Source: Microbacterium sp. (lineage in GTDB: Bacteria; Actinomycetota; Actinomycetes; Actinomycetales; Microbacteriaceae). Taken from it: a stretch of DNA of 33,612 nucleotides. The stretch covers positions 1 to 33,612 of the forward strand of contig JAITUD010000233.1 in assembly GCA_031286555.1 (NCBI GenBank), given 5' to 3'. The notes below the pieces were generated by a model. The model was not told the DNA's origin and ran no database searches. It saw only the letters and a list, made by a program, of their open reading frames with translations. The position numbers and the translations under genes were made by a program. Positions 20,110 to 33,612 of this stretch are shown here, piece after piece. The stretch's first letter is position 1. Every line of letters begins with the position of its first letter.

Positions 20110-20172
20110 CACCCGATGCGCGCCGGAACGTGCCCGGCGATGATCGTGACGCGAAATCGAAGGACCCTTGAG

Positions 20173-21507
20173 ATGACACCGGACATCGTTCTCTTCCACT
20201 GCCATGACCTCGGGCGCTGGCTGCCGACTTACGGGATGCCCGCCGTACCGGCGCCGCAGATCTCAGCGTTCGCGGATCAGTCGGTCGTCTTCGACGACGC
20301 GCACGCGGCTGCGCCGCTGTGCTCGCCCTCACGCGGCGCGCTGTTCACCGGCATGCCGCCGTACCGCAACGGCATTCAGGGGCTTGCGCACGACGGATGG
20401 CGTTACCGGGCCGGCGTCGCCACTCTTCCTGAGCGTCTCGAGCCGCTCGGCTACCACACGGCGCTCATCGGACTTCAGCACGAGAACGTCGATCCAACGG
20501 TTCTGGGGTTCGCGGAGTACCCCGGGCAGGGTTTCCTCCCGCGCACCGCACAGGTCGTCGAGGCCGCGTCTTCGTGGTTGCAGGGACTGGTCCCCAGGGC
20601 AGAGCGGAAGCCGATCTTCCTCACCGTCGGTGTGTGGGAGGTGCATCGCCCGTGGCCGGCCCCCGATTACACCCCGGCCGACCAGGCGAGCGTGGACGTG
20701 CCCGGCTTTCTCCCTGACAACGCCGACACCCGTGCCGACATCGCCGACTTCTATGGGTCGATCGCCCAGCTGGATGCCGGGTTCTCGGCGCTGCTCGGCG
20801 CGATCTCGTCGACGATCGGCGACGAGAACACGATGATCGTCTTCACGACCGACCACGGCGCGGCGTTCCCCCGAGCGAAGAGCACTCTCTATGACGCCGG
20901 CACGGGGGTGGCGCTGATGGTGCGCCCGCCCGCCGCCTGGCAGGTCGACCCCCACCGCGTCCCCGAGCTGGTCATCCATCAGGATCTGTTGCCCACGTTC
21001 CTCGAGATAGCCGGAGACGCCGGTCCTCACGACCGCGAGCTCGAAGGGCGCAGCATCCTGCCGCTGATCACCGGCACCGACGGCGGCTCACCGACGTCGG
21101 AGCGCATGGTCTTCACCAGCAAGACCTACCACGACTCCTACGACCCGAAGCGGGCAGTCCGCACCTCCGACTACGTCTACATCCGCAACTACAGCGAGGG
21201 GCCGATGCTCGAGCTTCCGGCTGATCTCGAAGGCAGCCGCACGCGGAAGGGCCTCGGGGACGAACATCTCGCTCCCCGCTCGGAGGAGGAGCTCTATGAT
21301 CGGCGGATCGATCCGTTCGAGCTCGATGATGTCGCTGGGCAGGACGCCTATGCCGATGTCCGGGCGCGATTGGCCGAGGCGCTGCACGACCGTCTGGTCA
21401 GCATCGGCGACCCGGTCGAGTCGGAGCCGATTCCCCGCGCGCCGTGGCGCTCGCGTCACGTGGATGACCTACCGGGTCTGCCAGGCCTGTCTGGCCCCAT
21501 CGACTGA
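20173..21507 (+). CDS. Sulfatase, heparan-N-sulfatase (SGSH)-like, no signal peptide
   Basis: MTPDIVLFHCHDLGRWLPTYG; APLCSPSRGALFTGMPPYRNGIQGLAHDGW (CxPxR); FTTDHGAAFPRAKSTLYDAGTGVALMVRPP. Confidence 0.9.
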   Translation: MTPDIVLFHCHDLGRWLPTYGMPAVPAPQISAFADQSVVFDDAHAAAPLCSPSRGALFTGMPPYRNGIQGLAHDGWRYRAGVATLPERLEPLGYHTALIGLQHENVDPTVLGFAEYPGQGFLPRTAQVVEAASSWLQGLVPRAERKPIFLTVGVWEVHRPWPAPDYTPADQASVDVPGFLPDNADTRADIADFYGSIAQLDAGFSALLGAISSTIGDENTMIVFTTDHGAAFPRAKSTLYDAGTGVALMVRPPAAWQVDPHRVPELVIHQDLLPTFLEIAGDAGPHDRELEGRSILPLITGTDGGSPTSERMVFTSKTYHDSYDPKRAVRTSDYVYIRNYSEGPMLELPADLEGSRTRKGLGDEHLAPRSEEELYDRRIDPFELDDVAGQDAYADVRARLAEALHDRLVSIGDPVESEPIPRAPWRSRHVDDLPGLPGLSGPID

Positions 21508-21530: not shown

Positions 21531-22535
21531 TCACGCAGTGATCGCGAGAGCGGCGGCGTCGATGCCGTGCTCGAGCGGAAGGTCCTCGCTGAGGCGCAGC
21601 AGCTCCCGCAACACCGAGTCTGCGAGCCGCCCGAGCTCATTGCCCTGAGAACCGGCGATGTGCGGAGTCAGCAGCGCGTTCTCCGACGAGTAGAGCGGAT
21701 GCTCCTGCTCCAGGACCCACGGCACCGTCACATCGAGGATCGCGTAGATCTCGCCGGCGATCACCCGCTCCGTCAATGCGACCTGGTCGACGATCTCGCC
21801 CCGCGCCGTGTTCACCAGGGTGGTCCCATGCCGCATGAGCCCGATCCCCCGGCGATCGATCAGATCGAGAGTCGACGGCAGCGACGGCGCGTGCACCGAG
21901 ACGACATCGCTGGTCGCGAGCAGCTCGTCGAGCTCCACCGCGACGACGCCGAGGGAAGCTGCATCCTCGACTGAGAGGTACGGGTCGTAGACCACCACCT
22001 CCATGTCGTAGCTGCGAAGCATCCCGATCACCAGACGGCCGATCTTCGAGGCACCCACGATGCCCACGCGGACGTCGTAGTTGCCCATCTCCGGGAACAC
22101 GGCATCTGCTGCGAAGCTCGTGCGCGACTCTCGATAACGGGCAGCGATGGGAAGCACCTTCTTGCCGGCCAAGACGATCATGGCGACGGTGTACTCGGCA
22201 ACCGGGACCGCGTTCGCCGCGGCAGCGGAGCTGACCTTGATGCCGCGCTCGAGGACGCCGTCGCCGATGTAGGGCTTCACGGTCCCCGCCGAATGCAGCA
22301 CCGCACGCAGCCGAGGCGCGGCGCGGACGACGTCGAGGTCCACGACCGGGGCGCCCCAGCCGGTGATGAGCACGTCCGTCTCAGCGAGCACAGCCAGAGC
22401 GGCTGGCGAGTCGAACTCCGTGAGGACGCCCGCTACATCCGCGATCTGCTCGATCCCCGCCCGTCGATCAGCGGGAAAGATCCGCGGGAGGACAGCCTCA
22501 CGCATCGCGAACGCGACTTTCAATCGTTCAATCAC
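21531..22535 (-). CDS. D-isomer-specific 2-hydroxyacid dehydrogenase family protein
   Basis: VGIVGASKIGRLVIGMLRSYDMEVVVYDPY; LVNTARGEIVD; LLTPHIAGSQG. Confidence 0.92.
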   Translation of the reverse strand: MIERLKVAFAMREAVLPRIFPADRRAGIEQIADVAGVLTEFDSPAALAVLAETDVLITGWGAPVVDLDVVRAAPRLRAVLHSAGTVKPYIGDGVLERGIKVSSAAAANAVPVAEYTVAMIVLAGKKVLPIAARYRESRTSFAADAVFPEMGNYDVRVGIVGASKIGRLVIGMLRSYDMEVVVYDPYLSVEDAASLGVVAVELDELLATSDVVSVHAPSLPSTLDLIDRRGIGLMRHGTTLVNTARGEIVDQVALTERVIAGEIYAILDVTVPWVLEQEHPLYSSENALLTPHIAGSQGNELGRLADSVLRELLRLSEDLPLEHGIDAAALAITA

Positions 22536-23446
22536 TTGACGCTCCCTGCGGACAGGCCCGCTCGCCAGAAGCGCTGCAGGAAGATGAATGCGATCAGCAG
22601 AGGCACGACGGACAGGAAGGAACCGGCGATGACCAGAGTTCCGAAATCCGGGTTCTGCTGCGCCTGGGACTGCCAGAGGAAGATGCCGACGCTCGTCGGG
22701 AAGAGCTCCCGGTTCTGCAGCATGATCAGCGGCAGCATGAAGTTGTTCCAGACGCTGACGAACTGGAAGAGGGCGATCGTGACGAAGCCGGGGGCGATCA
22801 TCGGCATCGCCACCTGGAGGAACGTGCGGATCGGCCCGGCGCCGTCGACGCGTGCCGCCTCGAGCACTTCACCGGGTACATAGCCGGCGCTGAAGATCCG
22901 GGCGAGGTAGACGCTGAACGGATTGCACAGCGAGGGGATGATCACGGCCCAGATGGTGTTGGTCATGCCGGATGCCGCCGCGAGAAGGTAGAGGGGGATG
23001 ACCGTGGCGGTGTGCGGGATCAGCACGCCGAGCAGGACGGCACCGTACAGGACGGGCTTGGCGCGGAACTGGAACTTGTCGAAGGCGTACCCTGCCATCA
23101 CCGAGATGAACCCGCCGACGACGGCACCGATGCCGGCGTACAGGATGCTGTTCAGAAGCCAGCGCAGGAAGAGGCCGTCGTCGGTGGTGATCAGGTTCGT
23201 CATGTTCGCGACGAAGGCGTCGCCGAACTGGAAGGGGTTGCCGTCGAAGAGGCCGGAGGCGGTCTTGGTCGCGGCGAACACGAGCCAGAGAAGCGGCAGC
23301 ACCATGTACGCCGAGCCGACGATGAGAAGTCCGTTGACGGACATCATCGCCGAAGGACGTGATGCCGCGTCGCGACGGGTGCGCTCGGGGCGGCGCTCGC
23401 GCGGCGGCGAGACCGGGGGAGCGGCGCGATCAAGAACGGCGGTCAT
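22532..23446 (-). CDS. Carbohydrate ABC transporter permease, MalG-like (importer C)
   Basis: LEAARVDGAGPIRTFLQVAMPMIAPGF; AGLSAGSVK. Confidence 0.92.
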   Translation of the reverse strand: MTAVLDRAAPPVSPPRERRPERTRRDAASRPSAMMSVNGLLIVGSAYMVLPLLWLVFAATKTASGLFDGNPFQFGDAFVANMTNLITTDDGLFLRWLLNSILYAGIGAVVGGFISVMAGYAFDKFQFRAKPVLYGAVLLGVLIPHTATVIPLYLLAAASGMTNTIWAVIIPSLCNPFSVYLARIFSAGYVPGEVLEAARVDGAGPIRTFLQVAMPMIAPGFVTIALFQFVSVWNNFMLPLIMLQNRELFPTSVGIFLWQSQAQQNPDFGTLVIAGSFLSVVPLLIAFIFLQRFWRAGLSAGSVK

Positions 23447-24366
23447 CAGTGGGCCCCCTTGGAGGTGAATCGGGTGACGAACCAGGAGAGCACAGCGGCG
23501 AGGAGAGCGAGCAGAATCGATGCCGCCGCAGCCTGCGGGAGGTTGTTTCGCACGAAGGCGGCTTCATACGCCCACATGTTCGGCACCCACGTGCTGGTGA
23601 CGTTCGTGGTGACGGAGCTCAGGATCTTCGGCTCGGTGAACAGCTGAAGGGAGCCGATGACCGTGAAGAGCAGCGCGACGCTGATCGCCGGCCAGACCAG
23701 CGGAGTCTTGATCGACACTGCCGTGCGGATCTCACCCGCGCCGTCGACGCGCGCGGCCTCGAGCACCTCACGAGGCACGGCCTGAAGCGCGGTGAAGAGG
23801 ATGATCACGTTGTAGCCGGTCCATTCCCAGACCGAGATGTTCACCATCGAAGGCAGGACCAGATGGACGGACAGGAAATCGATCGAGATGCCTCCCGAGG
23901 CGAGCACGTTCACGATCGGACTCACTCCGGGCGAGTAGAGGTATGCCCAGATCAGGGCCGCGATGACGCCCGGGACCGCGTGGGGGAGGAAGAGCAGGAG
24001 CTGGAAGACACGGCGCAGCCGCGCGGCGGCGGCATCCAGCAGCAGAGCGAGGAGGAGCGCGGTGATCAGCAGCACCGGCACGTACAGCAGGCAGTACACG
24101 GCGAGCCTCGCGAAGCCCTGCACGAAGGTCTCGTTCGACAGGATCGTGGCGTAGTTCTCGAACCAGACGAACTCGGTCGTCGTTCCGCCGAAGCCCAGGC
24201 CGCTTCGCCGCTCGATGAACAGGCTCATCCCCACGGCGTAGATGATCGGGGTGATCATCGTGAGCACGAAGAGGACGAAGAACGGCACCAGGAAGAGCGC
24301 CGCGGTGCGTCCGCCGGTTCCGCGCAGACCACGCCGAGGTCGAGCGGCACGTGTGATGGAAGTCAT
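23446..24366 (-). CDS. Sugar ABC transporter permease, MalF-like (importer C)
   Basis: LEAARVDGAGEIRTAVSIKTPLVWPA; multiple TM helices. Confidence 0.92.
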   Translation of the reverse strand: MTSITRAARPRRGLRGTGGRTAALFLVPFFVLFVLTMITPIIYAVGMSLFIERRSGLGFGGTTTEFVWFENYATILSNETFVQGFARLAVYCLLYVPVLLITALLLALLLDAAAARLRRVFQLLLFLPHAVPGVIAALIWAYLYSPGVSPIVNVLASGGISIDFLSVHLVLPSMVNISVWEWTGYNVIILFTALQAVPREVLEAARVDGAGEIRTAVSIKTPLVWPAISVALLFTVIGSLQLFTEPKILSSVTTNVTSTWVPNMWAYEAAFVRNNLPQAAAASILLALLAAVLSWFVTRFTSKGAH

Positions 24367-24430: not shown

Positions 24431-25735
24431 TTACTTCGCGATTTCCAGGCCGAGCTGCTTCAGCCCGGTGACGGTCGCCTTCTGGGTCTTCTCGACGGCG
24501 TCGCCGATGGTCGGCTCGCTCGCGACAGCGTCCGTCATGGCCGTGTAGGTCACCGAATAGCTCGGGCCCCAGGCCCAGGGGCGCAGGTGGGAGTACGCCT
24601 CATCGAACACCGCGTAGATGTCGTTCGCGTAGTAGTCGGTCGGAGCCACGGCCTTGGCGGCGTCGTTGAGGCCGGGGTAGGCGAGGTATGTCGTGCCCAC
24701 GGCGCCACGCGCTGTTACGGATTCCGGCGTGGTGGTCAGCCACTCGAGAAAGACGGCAGCCGCCTCGGGATTCTTGCTGGTCTTCGGGATGGTGAAGCTC
24801 GTGCCGCCGTTCAGTGCGCCGCCGGGCTTGCCACTCTCGGTCGGAGGAAGCGCGGCGATCCACTTGCCCTGCTGGTTCGCCGGTTCGGTGCGGCGTTTGA
24901 GTGACGATGCGCTCCAGGAGCCGGCCAACCAGCTCGCGACGGTGTCGTTCTGCAGGTCCGCGACCCACTCGTCGTTCAACCCGGGCTGCTTCTTCACGAG
25001 GCCCTCATCGATGAGTTTCTGCCACCAGTCGGCGGCCTTCATGGTCTCCTTGTCGTCGATCGTGACCTTCCACTTGTCGTCCTTGACAGCGAACCAGGTG
25101 GCCCCGGCCGTCCAGGCGATCGAAGCGAGCTGAGGCTCGCTGGTGAAGAAGCTCCCCAGGTACGCGTCGGGGTTCCAGGCCTTGACGGCCTTGGCGGCCT
25201 GTTCGTACTCGTCCCAGGACTTCGGCACCTCGTTCACGCCGGCCGCCTCGAGGATGTCCTGGCGGTACCACATGATGCTCGGGGGTGCGTCGTAGGGCAT
25301 GGCGTAGGTCTGGTCGGCGAAGCTGACGAGGGATCGGATGTTCTTCGGGTACTTGCCGAGGGTCTTCGCGGAGATGAGTTCATCGAGGGGCGTCAACTGC
25401 CCGGAAGACACGAAGTCGGTGAGGCTGGGGTACTCGATTCCCACGACGTCGGGGCCGGTGCCCGAGCCGATCGCAGCCGAGAGCTTGGTGTAGCCGCCGG
25501 ATGCCGCCTGTGGGATCTCCTCGAATGTGACCTTGATGTCGGGATGGGTGGCATTGAAGGCCGCGGCGACGTCAGCCATCCCGCTCAGCGAGGACCAGAA
25601 GGTGATGTCTCCCTTCGGTGCTTCCTTCGCGCTCTTCGAAGCAGGCGGTGAGGCAGCGGGAGAGGAACAGCCGGCCAGCAGCGCGCCGGTGGCGACGGCT
25701 GCCGTGACGGCGACGAGGACTCGGCGCAATGACAT
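24431..25735 (-). CDS. Sugar ABC transporter solute-binding lipoprotein (importer C)
   Basis: MSLRRVLVAVTAAVATGALLAGCSSP lipobox; SBP pattern. Confidence 0.93.
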   Translation of the reverse strand: MSLRRVLVAVTAAVATGALLAGCSSPAASPPASKSAKEAPKGDITFWSSLSGMADVAAAFNATHPDIKVTFEEIPQAASGGYTKLSAAIGSGTGPDVVGIEYPSLTDFVSSGQLTPLDELISAKTLGKYPKNIRSLVSFADQTYAMPYDAPPSIMWYRQDILEAAGVNEVPKSWDEYEQAAKAVKAWNPDAYLGSFFTSEPQLASIAWTAGATWFAVKDDKWKVTIDDKETMKAADWWQKLIDEGLVKKQPGLNDEWVADLQNDTVASWLAGSWSASSLKRRTEPANQQGKWIAALPPTESGKPGGALNGGTSFTIPKTSKNPEAAAVFLEWLTTTPESVTARGAVGTTYLAYPGLNDAAKAVAPTDYYANDIYAVFDEAYSHLRPWAWGPSYSVTYTAMTDAVASEPTIGDAVEKTQKATVTGLKQLGLEIAK

Positions 25736-25829
25736 GAAGGGGTTCTCCTTTGAATCGAAACCTTGCTGTGCCTCCCTCATCCTGGGGGAGGTGCAGTCGG
25801 ACGCAAAGGTGAACGTGTCAAAGTTAACA

Positions 25830-25846
25830 GAACCCAACATTTGGTC
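25830..25846. promoter_or_regulatory. Candidate operator GAACCCAACATTTGGTC upstream of importer C
   Basis: 13/17 identity to the reverse complement of the site at 27015-27031. Confidence 0.45.
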
Positions 25847-26924
25847 AGCGCACAGTGGACTCCCGGACATGCAGTGTCGGGAGGAGCGACATTCTCATCA
25901 CGGTGCTCGCGGCGCCCTCCTGCTGCCGCAGGCGGTCGACGCACAGCCGGAGGGCCGCGTGACCGAGTTCGCGCTTGGGCGGCGCGATCGCCGTCAGCGG
26001 CACGGTGGCGAAGGCCGCGACGTCGTCGTCGTAGGCGAGCACAGCGAAGTCCTCGGGTATGCGCAGTCCTCTCTCGAGGACCAGATCGGTGAAGGCCATG
26101 GCGACGGCGTCCCCCAGCAGGATCGCTGCGGTCATGCCAGAAGTGAGGCAGTCGTCCAACAGCGCCTCCAGCTCGGGCAGGATGACACCGTTGACCGAGG
26201 GGCGGGAGATCATGCGGGTCAAGCGGGACGAGGGCGCACCGGCGCTCATGGCGCGGTCGTATCCCGCCATCAACCCGGTCGTGGTGTTCGACCGACCGGC
26301 GGCGAGGGCGATTCTCTCGTTGCCGTTCTCCAGCAGGTGCCGGACTGCGATCTCGGCGCCATAGGCATGATCCGTACGGACCCATTCGAGTCGTCCCGCA
26401 ATCGCCTCGTCGACGGATCGCTCGACGATGACCACGGGGATGCGCGCGTTCTCGAGCAGCTGCTGCAGCGGAGTCGTCTCCTGGATGGGGTCGCGCGGCG
26501 TGACCATCAGCGCATCGACTCCGGAGGCGATGAGGCGCGTGGCCTGCCGGAGCTCCTCGTCCGGTGAGTAGCTGGTTCCGCCGACCACGAGTCGGCAGTT
26601 CGACTCGTTCGCGGCCTGACTCGCACCGCGGATGACTTCGGGGTAGTAGTAGTGCATGTTGGGGACGATCATGCCGATCGTCGCGACGGGTCTGCTCAGC
26701 ACATGTCCGTCGTTGCGGGCTTCAGGGGACTGCTGCTGGGCGACGGCCAGCGAGACCGCCCCGCCGTGCACCCGGGTCAGCAGGCCGCTTTCTTCGAGCG
26801 CGACGAGATCGCGCCACAGGGTCATCGTCGTGACCCCCATGCGCGCGGCGAGGGAAGTGGTGTGCAGGGATCCGCGCAGTTCAAGCTCACGCAGGATCCC
26901 GTCACGACGGGCGGCGGCGTGCAT
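25845..26924 (-). CDS. Transcriptional regulator: DeoR-type HTH plus LacI-type periplasmic-binding sensor domain
   Basis: RRDGILRELELRGSLHTTSLAARMGVTTMTLWRDLVALEESGLLTRVHGGAV followed by IGMIVPNMHYYYPEVIRGASQAANESNCRLVVGGTSY... and FAVLAYDDDVAAF. Confidence 0.88.
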   Translation of the reverse strand: MHAAARRDGILRELELRGSLHTTSLAARMGVTTMTLWRDLVALEESGLLTRVHGGAVSLAVAQQQSPEARNDGHVLSRPVATIGMIVPNMHYYYPEVIRGASQAANESNCRLVVGGTSYSPDEELRQATRLIASGVDALMVTPRDPIQETTPLQQLLENARIPVVIVERSVDEAIAGRLEWVRTDHAYGAEIAVRHLLENGNERIALAAGRSNTTTGLMAGYDRAMSAGAPSSRLTRMISRPSVNGVILPELEALLDDCLTSGMTAAILLGDAVAMAFTDLVLERGLRIPEDFAVLAYDDDVAAFATVPLTAIAPPKRELGHAALRLCVDRLRQQEGAASTVMRMSLLPTLHVRESTVR

Positions 26925-27014
26925 AGGTCTCCTCCGGGCCGAGAAAGCAACAATATACAACACGACGTTCGACGGGATCGGAACGGCTGATGAGCCGTGC
27001 AGGTCTGCTCGCGG

Positions 27015-27031
27015 GAACCGATGTTCGGTTC
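27015..27031. promoter_or_regulatory. Candidate operator GAACCGA-TGT-TCGGTTC
   Basis: Perfect 7-3-7 inverted repeat between the regulator and the divergent beta-propeller gene. Confidence 0.6.
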
Positions 27032-27145
27032 TGTTAGGTATCGGCCGGTTCGCTTGCCTTCGCGCAGCGCCCTGACTTGAGTGGCCTGAACCTCCGGCTC
27101 TTCAGCGGCCGGTCGATGACGACCTCGAGGAAGGACCACGACGCT

Positions 27146-29167
27146 GTGAACGAGATGAGCATCTCCCGGCGACAGTTGATCAAGATGACCGGAGCAGGCG
27201 TGACCGTGGCCGCGCTCGGCGTGGCGGTGGGCGCGCCATCCGCCTTCGGAGCGTCGAGTGGGGTGGGGCAGGCCCCGCGCACGACGATCACGGATCTGGG
27301 TCCTGCACACGTGGCGTTCTCCCTCATGAGCGGAGTGAAGGTCGGCGAGGTGATGTACATCGGCTCACGGAATCTGTCGCCGACGCGTATAGCGGCTTAT
27401 CACCTCCCCTCGAAGAAGGTCATCGCGAGCACAACTCTCGGGCCGGGCAAATTCGTGCAGGGCATGGCCGCCGATCCTTCAGGCCGCCACCTCTATGCAG
27501 GCATCGTGTACGACAAGGACACGGATCAGCCGAATCTCTTCTGCTGGGATCTCACGACGCCAGAGGTCCCGGCGACGGCAGTCGCGCGGATCCCCGGGCT
27601 CGACGTCCGGCGAGTCACCGTCGCGCCGGACGGCATGGTCTACGTCGTCGGCATGGAGGCTGATCCCGGTATCTGGGAGGTTGATCCGCGCACCGGCTCA
27701 TTCATGAACATCGGCATTCCCGACCCGAACGCGACCCAGTCCCGCGCAGTCGCCGCCACTGATACGACCGTGTACTTCGGCGCGGGCAGCAATCTCTCCG
27801 GAGGTGACGGCGCGAGCAAGGCGTCGCTGTTCGCCGTGGATCGCGCCACTCATCAGATCACCCCGATCCTGCCTGCCGCGATGGCGGAGGCCGATGCTGT
27901 GCGCGACATCGAGGTCATCGGAGACCGCCTCTACGTCGGCACCGAGGGGTCGAGCGAATTCGGAAAGTTCGGTTATGTCGAGCTCGCGAATCCGACGGTG
28001 TCCGGGGTCTTCGAGACGGACGGGAAGAGTGTCAAGCTCTTCCGCGAGCACGACGGGACCATCTACTTCGCCGCCGGCGGAGGCGTGAGCGGCTTCTCCG
28101 TCGCGGAGCGCGTCGTCGTCGATGTCGATACCCAGGGAATCAGCCTGGGCGAGATCTGGGGGCTCGACTACGACGCCGGGCAGGTCGTCGTGGTCTCGGC
28201 AGGCGGGTACATCGCGGAGGTCGACCCGACGAGCGGAGGCGTCCTCAAGACGGATCTGGTCGAGGCGGGGGCGCCATCGGATCTTCAGCTCGGCATGAGC
28301 ATCGCCGTCGGTGGCGGCTACATCTATGTCGGTGGAAACGGCAGCATGGCCCGGCATTCACTGGCAGACGGTGTCGTCACGAGCCTGGAGTTCCCCGGCG
28401 AATCCAAGGACGGGGTGGTTGTCGACGGCGTCCTCTACACGGGGCAGTACAGCTCGGAAGGCATCTGGAGCTACGACCCGCGCACCGGGGAGCCCCCGCA
28501 CCAGGCGATCGACCTGCCGCAGGAGCAGAACCGCCCGCAGGACGTGTACTGGGATGACGTGAATCGTCTCCTGCTCGTCGGCGTGCAGTGCGACAGTCAG
28601 GGCGGTGGCTCGCTGGCGATCTACGACCCCGTGACGGATCGCGTCGACCTCCACGTCAATCCCTTCGATCAATATCAGATGGTGCGCACCGTCACGGCGA
28701 GCAAGGGAATCGCCTACCTCGGAGGCGAGAACCCCTACAAGACTGGGCCGCGCGGTGAGGTCTCCGCGTGGGATCCGGTGTCGGGGAAGCAGCTCTGGCG
28801 AATCGATCCCGAGGTGGAGCGCGGAGGCATCACCAACATCGTCGTCAATGGTCGCTACCTGTACTGCCTGTGTGTGAAGGGCGAGTTCTTCGTGGTCGAC
28901 CTGCCGACGCGGCAGATCGTGCACCGGGCCGATCTCGGCAAGTCGCTCGTGCCGGGTCAGGCCACCCTCATCCTCAGCCGCGGCACCGTGTACGGGGTGT
29001 CTGCAGCGTCGATGTTCGCGTTCGATCGTAAGACGTTCGAGATGTCGGTCGTCATCCCGGACCTGAATGGTGAGTGGTACAGCATGCCGCGAGTCGATGC
29101 GGATGCCGATGGCGTGCTGTACACGCTGCGGCATCGCAACCTGGTCAAAGTCGACGACCATCGATGA
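27146..29167 (+). CDS. Tat-exported PQQ-like beta-propeller protein, function unknown; start uncertain (27077/27116/27146)
   Basis: SRRQLIKMTGAGVTVAALGVAVGAPSAFGA Tat-type signal; repeated blades such as GGYIYVGGNGSMARHSL, GVLYTGQYSSEGIWSYDPRTG, GEVSAWDPVSGKQLWRID. Confidence 0.82.
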   Translation: MNEMSISRRQLIKMTGAGVTVAALGVAVGAPSAFGASSGVGQAPRTTITDLGPAHVAFSLMSGVKVGEVMYIGSRNLSPTRIAAYHLPSKKVIASTTLGPGKFVQGMAADPSGRHLYAGIVYDKDTDQPNLFCWDLTTPEVPATAVARIPGLDVRRVTVAPDGMVYVVGMEADPGIWEVDPRTGSFMNIGIPDPNATQSRAVAATDTTVYFGAGSNLSGGDGASKASLFAVDRATHQITPILPAAMAEADAVRDIEVIGDRLYVGTEGSSEFGKFGYVELANPTVSGVFETDGKSVKLFREHDGTIYFAAGGGVSGFSVAERVVVDVDTQGISLGEIWGLDYDAGQVVVVSAGGYIAEVDPTSGGVLKTDLVEAGAPSDLQLGMSIAVGGGYIYVGGNGSMARHSLADGVVTSLEFPGESKDGVVVDGVLYTGQYSSEGIWSYDPRTGEPPHQAIDLPQEQNRPQDVYWDDVNRLLLVGVQCDSQGGGSLAIYDPVTDRVDLHVNPFDQYQMVRTVTASKGIAYLGGENPYKTGPRGEVSAWDPVSGKQLWRIDPEVERGGITNIVVNGRYLYCLCVKGEFFVVDLPTRQIVHRADLGKSLVPGQATLILSRGTVYGVSAASMFAFDRKTFEMSVVIPDLNGEWYSMPRVDADADGVLYTLRHRNLVKVDDHR

Positions 29168-29238: not shown

Positions 29239-30132
29239 TCAGTGAGTCGGTGCGACGGCGCACCCTGACTGTCGACTCCGGTACGCGGCCTCCACGATCG
29301 AGACGGTGGTGAGGACTTCCGCGGACGGCACATTCGGAACTCCTGTGCGGCACGCGTTCACGATGCTCTCCAGCAATCCATGCAGCATCGCAGGTCTCGC
29401 TTCGATGTCGAACGCGGCCGCGCGAGCATGGCCGTTGATCGTCCCTCTCGTATGCGCATGCCAGACCGAGGAGCCGCTGAGAGTTGCGCTTCTGCCGTCT
29501 GCCCAGCCCAGCACCGTCGTGTCGCCCGTGGCATCGACCGTCGTGCAACCTGGACCGAGTGCAGCGACAGCGAGGTCGACGAGGTGCACTCCGTACCAGG
29601 CGAGCAACGGATGGTGGGGCATCGTCGGGAGCGCGCCGTCCAGTTCGATCCGCATTGCGGGGCCGTCGAGCCGGCCGAGGGCCGTGCGGAACTCGGATGC
29701 GAAGCGTTTGGGCGAGCCGGCGAGCATGAGCGTTCCGTACTCGCGCGCGAGGGCGAGCATGTCCACAGCCTCGCTGGTGGTGGCGGCGAATCTCGTGTCG
29801 ATGTACACAGGTCTGCCCGCCGGGGCCACCTGCCGCAGCAGCTCTGGATGCGTGCGCTGGTCGCTTGAGACGATGAGCAGCGCATCGCAGATGTCGGCGA
29901 CACCTTCGGGGTCGTCGAGGAACGGGACACCGAGGCGTGCGAGGTCGGACGCGAACTGATCGTTGCGGTCGCGGCTGGGCGGGAAGTCACTCACGGTCGG
30001 CCCCTGCCAAGCGGCGGCGATGCGGGCGCCGGGGACGGCGCCGTGGACGCCGTCGCCAAGCAGCCTCGTGAACGATGGAGCGTGCGACGAGTCCACCCCG
30101 ATCAGCCCGAATCGCAGCGGCTCGGTCGTCAT
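29239..30132 (-). CDS. Gfo/Idh/MocA family protein, atypical
   Basis: LRFGLIGVDSSHAPSFTRLL; PVYIDTRFAATTSEAVDML at the usual EKP position; LAWYGVHLVDLAVAALG. Confidence 0.78.
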   Translation of the reverse strand: MTTEPLRFGLIGVDSSHAPSFTRLLGDGVHGAVPGARIAAAWQGPTVSDFPPSRDRNDQFASDLARLGVPFLDDPEGVADICDALLIVSSDQRTHPELLRQVAPAGRPVYIDTRFAATTSEAVDMLALAREYGTLMLAGSPKRFASEFRTALGRLDGPAMRIELDGALPTMPHHPLLAWYGVHLVDLAVAALGPGCTTVDATGDTTVLGWADGRSATLSGSSVWHAHTRGTINGHARAAAFDIEARPAMLHGLLESIVNACRTGVPNVPSAEVLTTVSIVEAAYRSRQSGCAVAPTH

Positions 30133-31010
30133 CCCTTCACCCCGGATGATGTGATGCTGTCGACGATGTGGCGCTGCAGGAAGAGGAAGATGATCAGGCA
30201 GGGGATGAAGCTGATCAGCGCCGCCGCCATGATGTTCGACGTCGAGATCTGTTCGGTGTCGAGCGAAGCGAGTCCGACGGTCAGCGTTCTCGCTGCATCC
30301 GATTGGCCGATGATGAGCGGCCAGAGCAGGTCATTCCAGTGCCAGAGGAACACGAAGATCGCGAGCGTCGCGAGCACCGGCTTGATCAGGGGAAGCACGA
30401 TCGTGACGAACGTGCGCCACTCGCCGGCGCCGTCGATGCGCGCGGCGTCGAAGATCTCCTCCGGCAGGTCGCGCACGAACTGACGGATCAGGAACACCGC
30501 CTGCGCGTTCGCCAGAGTGGGCAGGATCAGACCCCACAACGTGTTCACGCCACCCCACCCCGCGACCATGATGAACATGGGGATCAGGCTGGCCTGCATC
30601 GGAACCATCAGCGTCGCGATGATCGACCACAGCAGCACATTGCGTCCGGGGAACCGCTTGCGTGCGAGCGCGTAAGCGGCCATCGACGCGGTGAGCAGGA
30701 TGACGACGACGGAGACGACAGAGTAGGCGATCGAGTTCCACAGCCAGAGCGGGAATGCACCGACGTTGAAGATGCGCAGCAGGTTGTCGAACGTGAGTGT
30801 CTCGGGCCACGCGTAGGGGATGGTCCGTTCGTGCTCTGGAGAGAGGGCCAGGATGACGATCGCGATCAGTGGAGCCACCGTGAACAGCGAGATGACTGAT
30901 AGGGCGAGCACCGGCATCCAGCGCTTTCGCGGTCGCCGCCGCGGGGCGGACGCACCTGCGCGCGGTGCCGGGGGTTCGGTGGTCGGGGCGGGGATCAGGG
31001 TCGAGGTCAT
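30129..31010 (-). CDS. Carbohydrate ABC transporter permease, MalG-like (importer D)
   Basis: FDAARIDGAGEWRTFVTIVLPLIKPVL; 4-bp overlaps with both neighbours. Confidence 0.92.
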   Translation of the reverse strand: MTSTLIPAPTTEPPAPRAGASAPRRRPRKRWMPVLALSVISLFTVAPLIAIVILALSPEHERTIPYAWPETLTFDNLLRIFNVGAFPLWLWNSIAYSVVSVVVILLTASMAAYALARKRFPGRNVLLWSIIATLMVPMQASLIPMFIMVAGWGGVNTLWGLILPTLANAQAVFLIRQFVRDLPEEIFDAARIDGAGEWRTFVTIVLPLIKPVLATLAIFVFLWHWNDLLWPLIIGQSDAARTLTVGLASLDTEQISTSNIMAAALISFIPCLIIFLFLQRHIVDSITSSGVKG

Positions 31011-31918
31011 TTCTCCTCCTTGCCCTCGAAGAAGTACCTCTGCACGAGCGAGAGGATCAGCACGATGGCGAACAGAACAAGCCCGATGGCCGCTGCGTAC
31101 CCGAAGTCGAAGAAGCGGAAACCCTGATCGAACAGGAAGTAGATCAAGCTGTAGCTGGCACGGGACGGCCCGCCTCCGGTCATGACGTAGATGGTGTCGA
31201 AGACCTGGAAACCCACGATCGTCTCAATGACGAGAACGAAGAACAGGACGGGTTTCAGCAGGGGGAGCGTGATGTGCCAGAAGCTCTTCCAGCCGCCCGC
31301 GCCGTCGATGCGCGCGGCCTCGTGCACCTCGGCGGGTTGGGCCTTGAGCCCGGCGAGGAAGATCAGCATCGAGTACCCGAATCCTTTCCAAGCGGCGACC
31401 GCCGCGAGGCTCGCCAGCACAAGCCACTGGTCGCCCGTGAGGAAGGGGACGGGGCCGAGGCCGGCGCCTGCGAGGGCGGCGTTCAGCGGGCCGTCGATCG
31501 CGAAGATCCACTTCCAGATGATGCCCGCCAGCACGAAGGAGCTGAGGTACGGGACGAACAGGAGAGCGCGGAAGAGGGCGCTCCCACGCACGATCCGGCT
31601 CAGCAGGAGGGCGCCGACGAGGGCGACCACGATGATCAGGGGAACGAACAGGACGACGTACATGAGGGTGACGCCGAGAGATTGCCAGAAGTGCGGGTCG
31701 CCGAAAAGCCGCGTGTAGTTGTCACCCCCGATGAATTCCACGTCCCCGTTCAGCCTGTAGCGGGTGAGGCTCATCGCGCCGGCTCCGCCGATCGGGATGA
31801 ACTTGAAGACGACGAAGATGACGATCGTCGGCAGTACGAACAGGAGGCCCGCTATCGCCTCGCGGTGTCGCGCCGCTCGCCCCGGAGCCTTCGTGGTCCG
31901 TGTGATGGTGCTGGACAT
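31007..31918 (-). CDS. Sugar ABC transporter permease, MalF-like (importer D)
   Basis: HEAARIDGAGGWKSFWHITLPLLKPVL. Confidence 0.92.
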   Translation of the reverse strand: MSSTITRTTKAPGRAARHREAIAGLLFVLPTIVIFVVFKFIPIGGAGAMSLTRYRLNGDVEFIGGDNYTRLFGDPHFWQSLGVTLMYVVLFVPLIIVVALVGALLLSRIVRGSALFRALLFVPYLSSFVLAGIIWKWIFAIDGPLNAALAGAGLGPVPFLTGDQWLVLASLAAVAAWKGFGYSMLIFLAGLKAQPAEVHEAARIDGAGGWKSFWHITLPLLKPVLFFVLVIETIVGFQVFDTIYVMTGGGPSRASYSLIYFLFDQGFRFFDFGYAAAIGLVLFAIVLILSLVQRYFFEGKEEK

Positions 31919-31938
31919 GGGTCAGCCCTTCCAGGTGG

Positions 31939-31973
31939 TGCGGGACCGGGCGCGGGTCGGGCCCGGCCCCGCA
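31939..31973 (-). terminator. Intra-operon hairpin 3' of the importer D SBP gene
   Basis: TGCGGGACCGGGC / GCCCGGCCCCGCA: 13-bp stem, 9-nt loop; the single A.C mismatch on + is a U.G wobble in the minus transcript. Confidence 0.6.
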
Positions 31974-31978
31974 GCGGT

Positions 31979-33256
31979 TCAGTTGCGGTCGAGGATCGCG
32001 CGGCCCGCGGTCGCGGCCGTGTCCAGCGCCTCCTTGGGCGAGAGGTCCCCGCGCAGCGCGGACTGGATGTAGGGGGCGAGAGCCGCCATCACCTGGCGGG
32101 CGACGGGGCTCGCCTCACCGGGGTTGGCGACGGAGAGCGCCTCTTTGAAAGTGTCGTAGTCGGGGCCTTCGGCCGGGGCCGCGACATCGGTACGCGGCGA
32201 GAAGTTGCCTGACGCCTTGCTGAGCTTCGCCTGGAAGTCGGGAGTCGACAGGTAGTTCAGCACCGCGTAGGCGGCGGCTCGGTTCTCCTTCTTGTTGATC
32301 GAGGTGAGCGCGATCAGACCGGGATTGCCGAAGGTCGCCTGCTCCTTGCCGGTGAACGGTGCCCCGACTTCGACACCTTCACCGCCTACCGCGGCCCGCA
32401 GCGGCCCCAGCTCGGACGGCCCGGCGTTCGTGCGGATTCCCACCTTGCCGGCGGCCCACTGAGAGCCATCGATCGCCACTCCCGCTGTCGCGGCGTCCGG
32501 CGGCAGACCGCCCTCCTTCATCAGATCGACGAGGAAGGTCAGAGCATTCACGCCTTCCTTGGAGTCGAAGGCGATGTCCTTGCCATCCTTCGTGAACACC
32601 GATCCACCGGCTTGCCACAGGAAGGGGTAGAACGTCAGATTCAGGGTCTGCTGGGCGCTGCCGGCGTAGTCCATCACTGCGATGCCCTTCTTCGCGAGCA
32701 CCGGTGCGGCTGCGTCGATCTCGTCCCAGGTCTTGGGGACCTCGAGCCCCGCCTCCTTGAAGAGCTTCGTGTTCACGACGTTCGCCGCGACATTCTGGAA
32801 GATCGGCAGGCCGTAGAGTTCGCCGTCGAATGTCGCCGCGTCGAGCGAGCTCGGGAAGAAGGCCTTCCGGTCCTTCTCCGGGAGGGCGTCGTCGATGGGC
32901 AGAACGCCGCCGACGTTGAGGTAGGTCGCCGCCATGTCGGGGGTGACCAGTGCGAGGTCGGGACCGGAGTTCGCCGCGAGGGCGGCGGAGATCTGCTCGT
33001 CACGCTTCGCGAAGGGCTGCAGTTCGATCTTCAGGTCCACATCGGGATAGGCCTTCTCGAAGTCCTTCTGGGTCTCGGTCCAGAATTCCTTGCTCGCGGT
33101 CTCGTCCTTGATCACCGGATACATCCACATGGTGACGGATCCCTTCGCCTCCTTCACGTCCTTGGCGTCAGGAACGGCGTTGGCGGATGAGCAGGCGGTC
33201 ACGGCGAGGGTGGCGATCGCGGCGATCGCTGCGCCCTGGAGGATGCGATGCTTCAT
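31979..33256 (-). CDS. Sugar ABC transporter solute-binding lipoprotein (importer D)
   Basis: MKHRILQGAAIAAIATLAVTACSSAN lipobox; SBP pattern. Confidence 0.93.
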   Translation of the reverse strand: MKHRILQGAAIAAIATLAVTACSSANAVPDAKDVKEAKGSVTMWMYPVIKDETASKEFWTETQKDFEKAYPDVDLKIELQPFAKRDEQISAALAANSGPDLALVTPDMAATYLNVGGVLPIDDALPEKDRKAFFPSSLDAATFDGELYGLPIFQNVAANVVNTKLFKEAGLEVPKTWDEIDAAAPVLAKKGIAVMDYAGSAQQTLNLTFYPFLWQAGGSVFTKDGKDIAFDSKEGVNALTFLVDLMKEGGLPPDAATAGVAIDGSQWAAGKVGIRTNAGPSELGPLRAAVGGEGVEVGAPFTGKEQATFGNPGLIALTSINKKENRAAAYAVLNYLSTPDFQAKLSKASGNFSPRTDVAAPAEGPDYDTFKEALSVANPGEASPVARQVMAALAPYIQSALRGDLSPKEALDTAATAGRAILDRN

Positions 33257-33287
33257 TGCAGTTCTCACTTTCGGGTAGGTACTGGTT

Positions 33288-33612
33288 TCAGGGATTGGAG
33301 GCGGGCGGGGCCGATGCCAGCCCGATACGCGCGAGTGTGTCGAGTGCGAGGGCATGCCGTGGGGACGCGGGCTCAGTCAGCAGCGGGTCGTCGACAGAGC
33401 TCATCCAGCGCCGCAGTGCGGACGCATGGTCGCTGATCTGCGAGATGCGGGAGGGGTCGTCGATGAGGTTTTCGAGTTCGTGCGGATCCCGCTCGAGGTC
33501 GTAGAACTCCATCAACGGACTGGTTCCGACGGTGGGACCGGTGAGATCGATCGGGGTGGTCCGATGCGTCCAAGACTGCGTCGGGTCCATGCTCTTGGGC
33601 GCATTCGAGAAG
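33288..33612 (-). CDS. Sulfatase, C-terminal fragment (N-terminal part outside window)
   Basis: LMEFYDLERDPHELENLIDDPSR, typical sulfatase C-terminal motif; frame stays open to the window edge (FSNAPKSMDPTQSW). Confidence 0.8.
   Translation of the reverse strand, partial: FSNAPKSMDPTQSWTHRTTPIDLTGPTVGTSPLMEFYDLERDPHELENLIDDPSRISQISDHASALRRWMSSVDDPLLTEPASPRHALALDTLARIGLASAPPASNP

Follow-up and report, generated by a model that had tools for sequence, protein, structure and literature searches.

The regulator encoded in the window, by which we mean the whole 33,612-nucleotide stretch of Microbacterium sp. DNA analysed here, is likely to be a local, autoregulated repressor of a sugar-uptake cluster, which would bind 10-bp direct repeats and be released from them by an imported saccharide. 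The sequences themselves establish the domain architecture, the presence and positions of a conserved direct repeat, and the co-occurrence of its motif with the regulator. The analysis also corrects the operator assignment of an earlier note on this DNA, which had pointed to an inverted repeat. The gene and its domains are laid out as follows.

25845-26924, minus strand: gene for the hybrid regulator (359 aa), which opens a conserved operon
26748-26909, minus strand: DeoR-type winged HTH, residues 6-59, with recognition helix MTLWRDL (relatives have Arg in place of Trp)
25854-26681, minus strand: LacI-type, periplasmic-binding-protein-like sensor, residues ~82-357

The reading frame includes the peptide TLWRDLVALEESGLLTRVHGGAV, quoted in the earlier note in support of a DeoR-HTH/LacI-sensor hybrid, and domain searches bear that assignment out. 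In Pfam, HTH_DeoR (PF08220) covers residues 6-59 with E=4e-14, which exceeds the curated cut-off, Peripla_BP_3 (PF13377) matches at 194-357 with E=2e-24, and Peripla_BP_1 spans residues 82-330; the RbsR, PurR and CytR models of NCBIfam match the sensor as well. Neither the LacI HTH (PF00356) nor the DeoRC sugar-phosphate sensor domain has a Pfam match in the regulator, and the full-length DeoR models of NCBIfam match its N-terminus only, residues 1-86 at most. Ordinary DeoR-family regulators carry the DeoRC sensor, and its replacement here by a LacI-type sensor agrees with the departure from the usual DeoR C-terminal domain that had been claimed. The combination of a DeoR HTH with a LacI sensor is far above chance. 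Likewise, in the AlphaFold2 model (mean pLDDT 84) a linker of low confidence (~residues 60-80) joins a winged HTH to a LacI-type sensor, and the latter matches CcpA, PurR, RbsR and AraR. The linker is variable outside the ortholog group; in the orthologs, residues ~57-65 read SLAVAQQQ or SPAVAQQQ, with a hinge-like AVAQQQ stretch that lacks the hinge leucine. This sequence is similar to the PurR hinge, but without that leucine and ~10 residues farther from the sensor.

The solved sensors nearest by sequence are those of AraR, which gives the best match (3tb6, E=3e-20), and RbsR. Since in addition the gene lies within a sugar ABC cluster, it is plausible that the sensor binds a free sugar or an oligosaccharide. 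The cluster and the divergent gene next to it comprise the following.

24431-25735, minus strand: substrate-binding lipoprotein SBP1, ABC sugar type (SBP_bac_1)
23446-24366, minus strand: ABC permease 1 (BPD_transp_1)
22532-23446, minus strand: ABC permease 2 (BPD_transp_1)
21531-22535, minus strand: D-2-hydroxyacid dehydrogenase-like enzyme (2-Hacid_dh_C)
27077-29167, plus strand: secreted beta-propeller protein with a Tat-like signal; the start codon is possibly 27116 or farther downstream

Complete clusters in the orthologs run regulator, SBP, permease, permease and D-2-hydroxyacid dehydrogenase, and in many cases the propeller gene comes next; two orthologs (L095, L098) have a reduced cluster. 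The propeller proteins form a family of Tat-type secreted double beta-propellers that is repeatedly linked to the regulator, the window copy being 44-51% identical to its relatives. A fold search with the propeller returned generic double beta-propellers only, which point to no function, and a profile search against the PDB gave no match.

An alignment of the regulator-SBP gap in the orthologs revealed the direct repeat TGTTRGGTTYTGTTA, in which the TGTT half-sites start 10 bp apart. Three predicted operators in the window carry this repeat, and one of them overlaps the palindrome of the earlier note.

25825-25839, minus strand: predicted operator O1, TGTTGGGTTCTGTTA, between the regulator stop and the SBP1 start; conserved in orthologs
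26948-26962, minus strand: predicted operator O2, TGTTGTATATTGTTG, 23 bp 5' of the regulator start codon, suggesting autoregulation
27022-27036, plus strand: predicted operator O3, TGTTCGGTTCTGTTA, ahead of the divergently transcribed propeller gene and overlapping the palindrome; in genome G311 a matching site lies ahead of a propeller gene
27015-27031, no strand: perfect 7-3-7 inverted repeat GAACCGA-TGT-TCGGTTC of the earlier note, probably incidental

Against an expectation of 0.04, the window has three occurrences of the pattern TGTT-N6-TGTT, all of them intergenic and within the regulator's cluster. O1, as TGTT + TGTT or TGTT + TGTG, is found in all ten MTLWRDL orthologs at the same place shortly 3' of the regulator stop, and over its 15 columns it carries a mean of 1.75 bits per column as compared to 0.85-0.98 in the flanks (nine non-redundant orthologs). 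Around the ortholog genes, period-10 direct repeats number 30 against 7.6 expected (z=6). The TGTT-N6-TGTT scan did not find O2 in several orthologs (L038, L091-L093, L095, L096). Paralogs at greater distance (31-48% identity) share no 10-bp direct-repeat signal, and a generalisation of the motif to them was rejected; some of their loci are minus-strand as filed, with up- and downstream labels swapped, which leaves the direct-repeat counts unaffected.

The inverted repeat itself is perfect and sits exactly where it had been reported, ~90 bp 5' of the regulator start. A role as the operator, with a symmetric dimer bound to it in the manner of LacI-family repressors, would be favoured by the two-fold symmetric dimerisation of LacI-type sensors if this were considered alone, and AraR, the best studied LacI-sensor chimera, does bind palindromes (PMC4218819). 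However, perfect 7-3-7 inverted repeats occur in the window at the rate of chance (5 observed against 4.95 in Markov shuffles), and inverted repeats show no enrichment around the ortholog genes. Conservation at orthologous loci had been set beforehand as the check on this assignment, and the repeat is not conserved: its exact sequence is absent from 14 of 14 relative loci, that is, from 13 orthologs and the paralog of the same genome. We therefore reject the palindrome as the operator, on both its chance-level frequency and its non-conservation, and regard that role for it as very improbable. Its right arm is merely part of the direct-repeat site at 27022-27036, and so the earlier note had the right place but the wrong symmetry. 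It is instead the conserved repeat TGTTNGGTTYTGTTA, with its 10-bp period, that we take as the candidate operator at this position.

But when a LacI-type sensor acquires a foreign DNA-binding head in the evolution of repressors, does the symmetry of the operator come from the head or from the sensor? Known systems speak to both sides. AraR of Bacillus subtilis resembles the hybrid regulator in combining a winged HTH from another family with a LacI-type sugar sensor, and in controlling sugar-uptake and catabolic genes, just as the hybrid regulator lies in a sugar ABC cluster; with its sugar-regulon setting, the protein described here thus has all the marks of an AraR-like chimera. AraR, however, is a GntR-LacI chimera that binds palindromic boxes (PMC4218819), whereas the hybrid regulator has a DeoR-type head and a predicted direct-repeat operator. 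From the LacI/GalR family (RbsR, CcpA, PurR, LacI), the members of which have palindromic motifs (PMC3870299), the hybrid regulator takes sensor fold and sequence, but it lacks the LacI HTH and hinge helix, has a longer and variable linker and shows no palindromic operator signal. Then again, the motifs of DeoR-family RhaR regulators consist of two imperfect direct repeats with a periodicity of 10-11 bp (Rodionova et al. 2013, PMC3870299), and with these regulators the hybrid protein shares the DeoR-type HTH, direct repeats of this period, as judged by comparative genomics alone, and a predicted local control of a sugar operon. Because RhaR motifs are direct repeats and those of the LacI family and of AraR are palindromes, the operator of the hybrid regulator seems to take its geometry from the DeoR-type head and not from the LacI-type sensor. 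The comparative evidence thus favours the head as the source of operator symmetry. We give an even chance to a model in which a two-fold symmetric dimer of LacI-type sensors drives two DeoR-type heads bound to a direct repeat in head-to-tail order, the geometry being set by the grafted head; if true, this would require either that a flexible linker break the symmetry or that two dimers sit side by side.

The predicted sites are nearly unique in genomes of ~4 Mb, a scan with TGTTNGRTTYTGTKR giving 0-2 matches per genome in 11 ortholog-carrying genomes. In G311 the second site is remote from the regulator, on another contig, where it precedes a propeller homolog by ~110-130 bp. The genome of the window also encodes a paralog (C309) with sites ahead of itself and of its own propeller gene. 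Within the genus (298 genomes), a stricter motif is present in 8 of the 13 genomes that have an ortholog as compared to 4 of the 285 that lack one (Fisher p=4e-10, a value that ignores shared ancestry). One of the eight, G141, in itself lends no support to the link with the regulator, since its match lies away from the regulator. Orthologs that read MTLRRDL, with Arg for Trp, have half-sites of the TGTGC or TGTTC type at unchanged spacing and position. As the Trp/Arg switch in the recognition helix occurred only once on the tree, its tie to the half-site change is suggestive only. The direct repeats might of course be sites of another factor, such as a global regulator, and the motif matches in the four genomes without an ortholog are in keeping with this. 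Such a factor would not, however, be expected from a motif that is almost unique in each genome and tracks the presence of the regulator, that marks both the regulator's operon and a distant propeller gene, and that differs where the recognition helix of the orthologs differs; we consider this explanation unlikely and favour the hybrid regulator as the protein that recognises the repeats.

Other matches were judged individually. Those to TGTTCGATTCTGTGA in three relatives were taken as chance, the neighbouring ORFs looking flagellar by reading and no cluster gene being nearby. A weak two-mismatch site in G124, 10 kb from the regulator operator, precedes a propeller gene, yet on the other strand, and was set aside. 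In the window's own genome, the near-match TGTTGGGTTACGTT (L070, 1501-1514; G000:C497:4535) is located between divergent ABC permease and dehydrogenase genes and is a possible further target, and in a genome with no ortholog above the cut-off TGTTTGGTTCTGTTA adjoins sugar ABC permease genes (L124; G173:C10:93414).

We infer that the repeats are physically bound, that binding represses rather than activates, and that the ligand belongs to the sugars. In this model each site consists of two TGTT(R/C) half-sites in head-to-tail order, spaced by one helical turn (10 bp), to which the DeoR-type winged HTHs would bind. O2 would control the regulator's own gene, O1 the SBP-permease-permease-dehydrogenase genes and O3 the gene of the divergent secreted propeller. 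Binding of an imported saccharide to the LacI-type sensor would then release the regulator and induce the cluster. The same protein could act at the same repeats as an activator or dual regulator, a reading left some room by operator-to-promoter placement, as no consensus promoter was found near the predicted sites. Against this, the first half-site before the regulator gene is overlapped, by eye, in several relatives by a sequence similar to an actinobacterial -10 box (TATGTT or TACGTT), an arrangement that suits repression, and sugar regulators of the DeoR and LacI families are repressors for the most part. Activation or dual control is thus rather unlikely, if slightly less so than recognition of the repeats by another factor, and repression is the mode of action we propose.

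The architecture is common, since many genomes of the order, and four others in a sample of the phylum, have full-length hybrid homologs (31-48% identity), both HTH_DeoR and Peripla_BP_3 being present in 23 of 23 homologs scanned. Numerous paralogs in the genus, in the order and in parts of the class share this architecture. Orthologs (58-75% identity) are found in 12 other genomes of the 298-genome genus sample and also in named Microbacterium strains, two of which are apparently the same genomes. No description of a DeoR-LacI chimera was found in the literature searched, which takes in few of the subscription journals; within it, these regulators are an undescribed yet widespread class in Actinobacteria, for which a testable motif is now given.

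Further sugar-related genes flank the region described. A second sugar ABC cluster at 29239-33355 on the minus strand consists of a Gfo-like oxidoreductase, two permeases and an SBP; its closest relatives, in G005 (L054), are found next to another hybrid regulator (38% identity), together with genes for a sulfatase and a hydroxyacid dehydrogenase. At 20116-21507 on the plus strand, after another ABC cluster, lies the gene of a sulfatase whose CSPSR motif reads as formylglycine-type; it may hint at sulfated sugars as substrates of the region.
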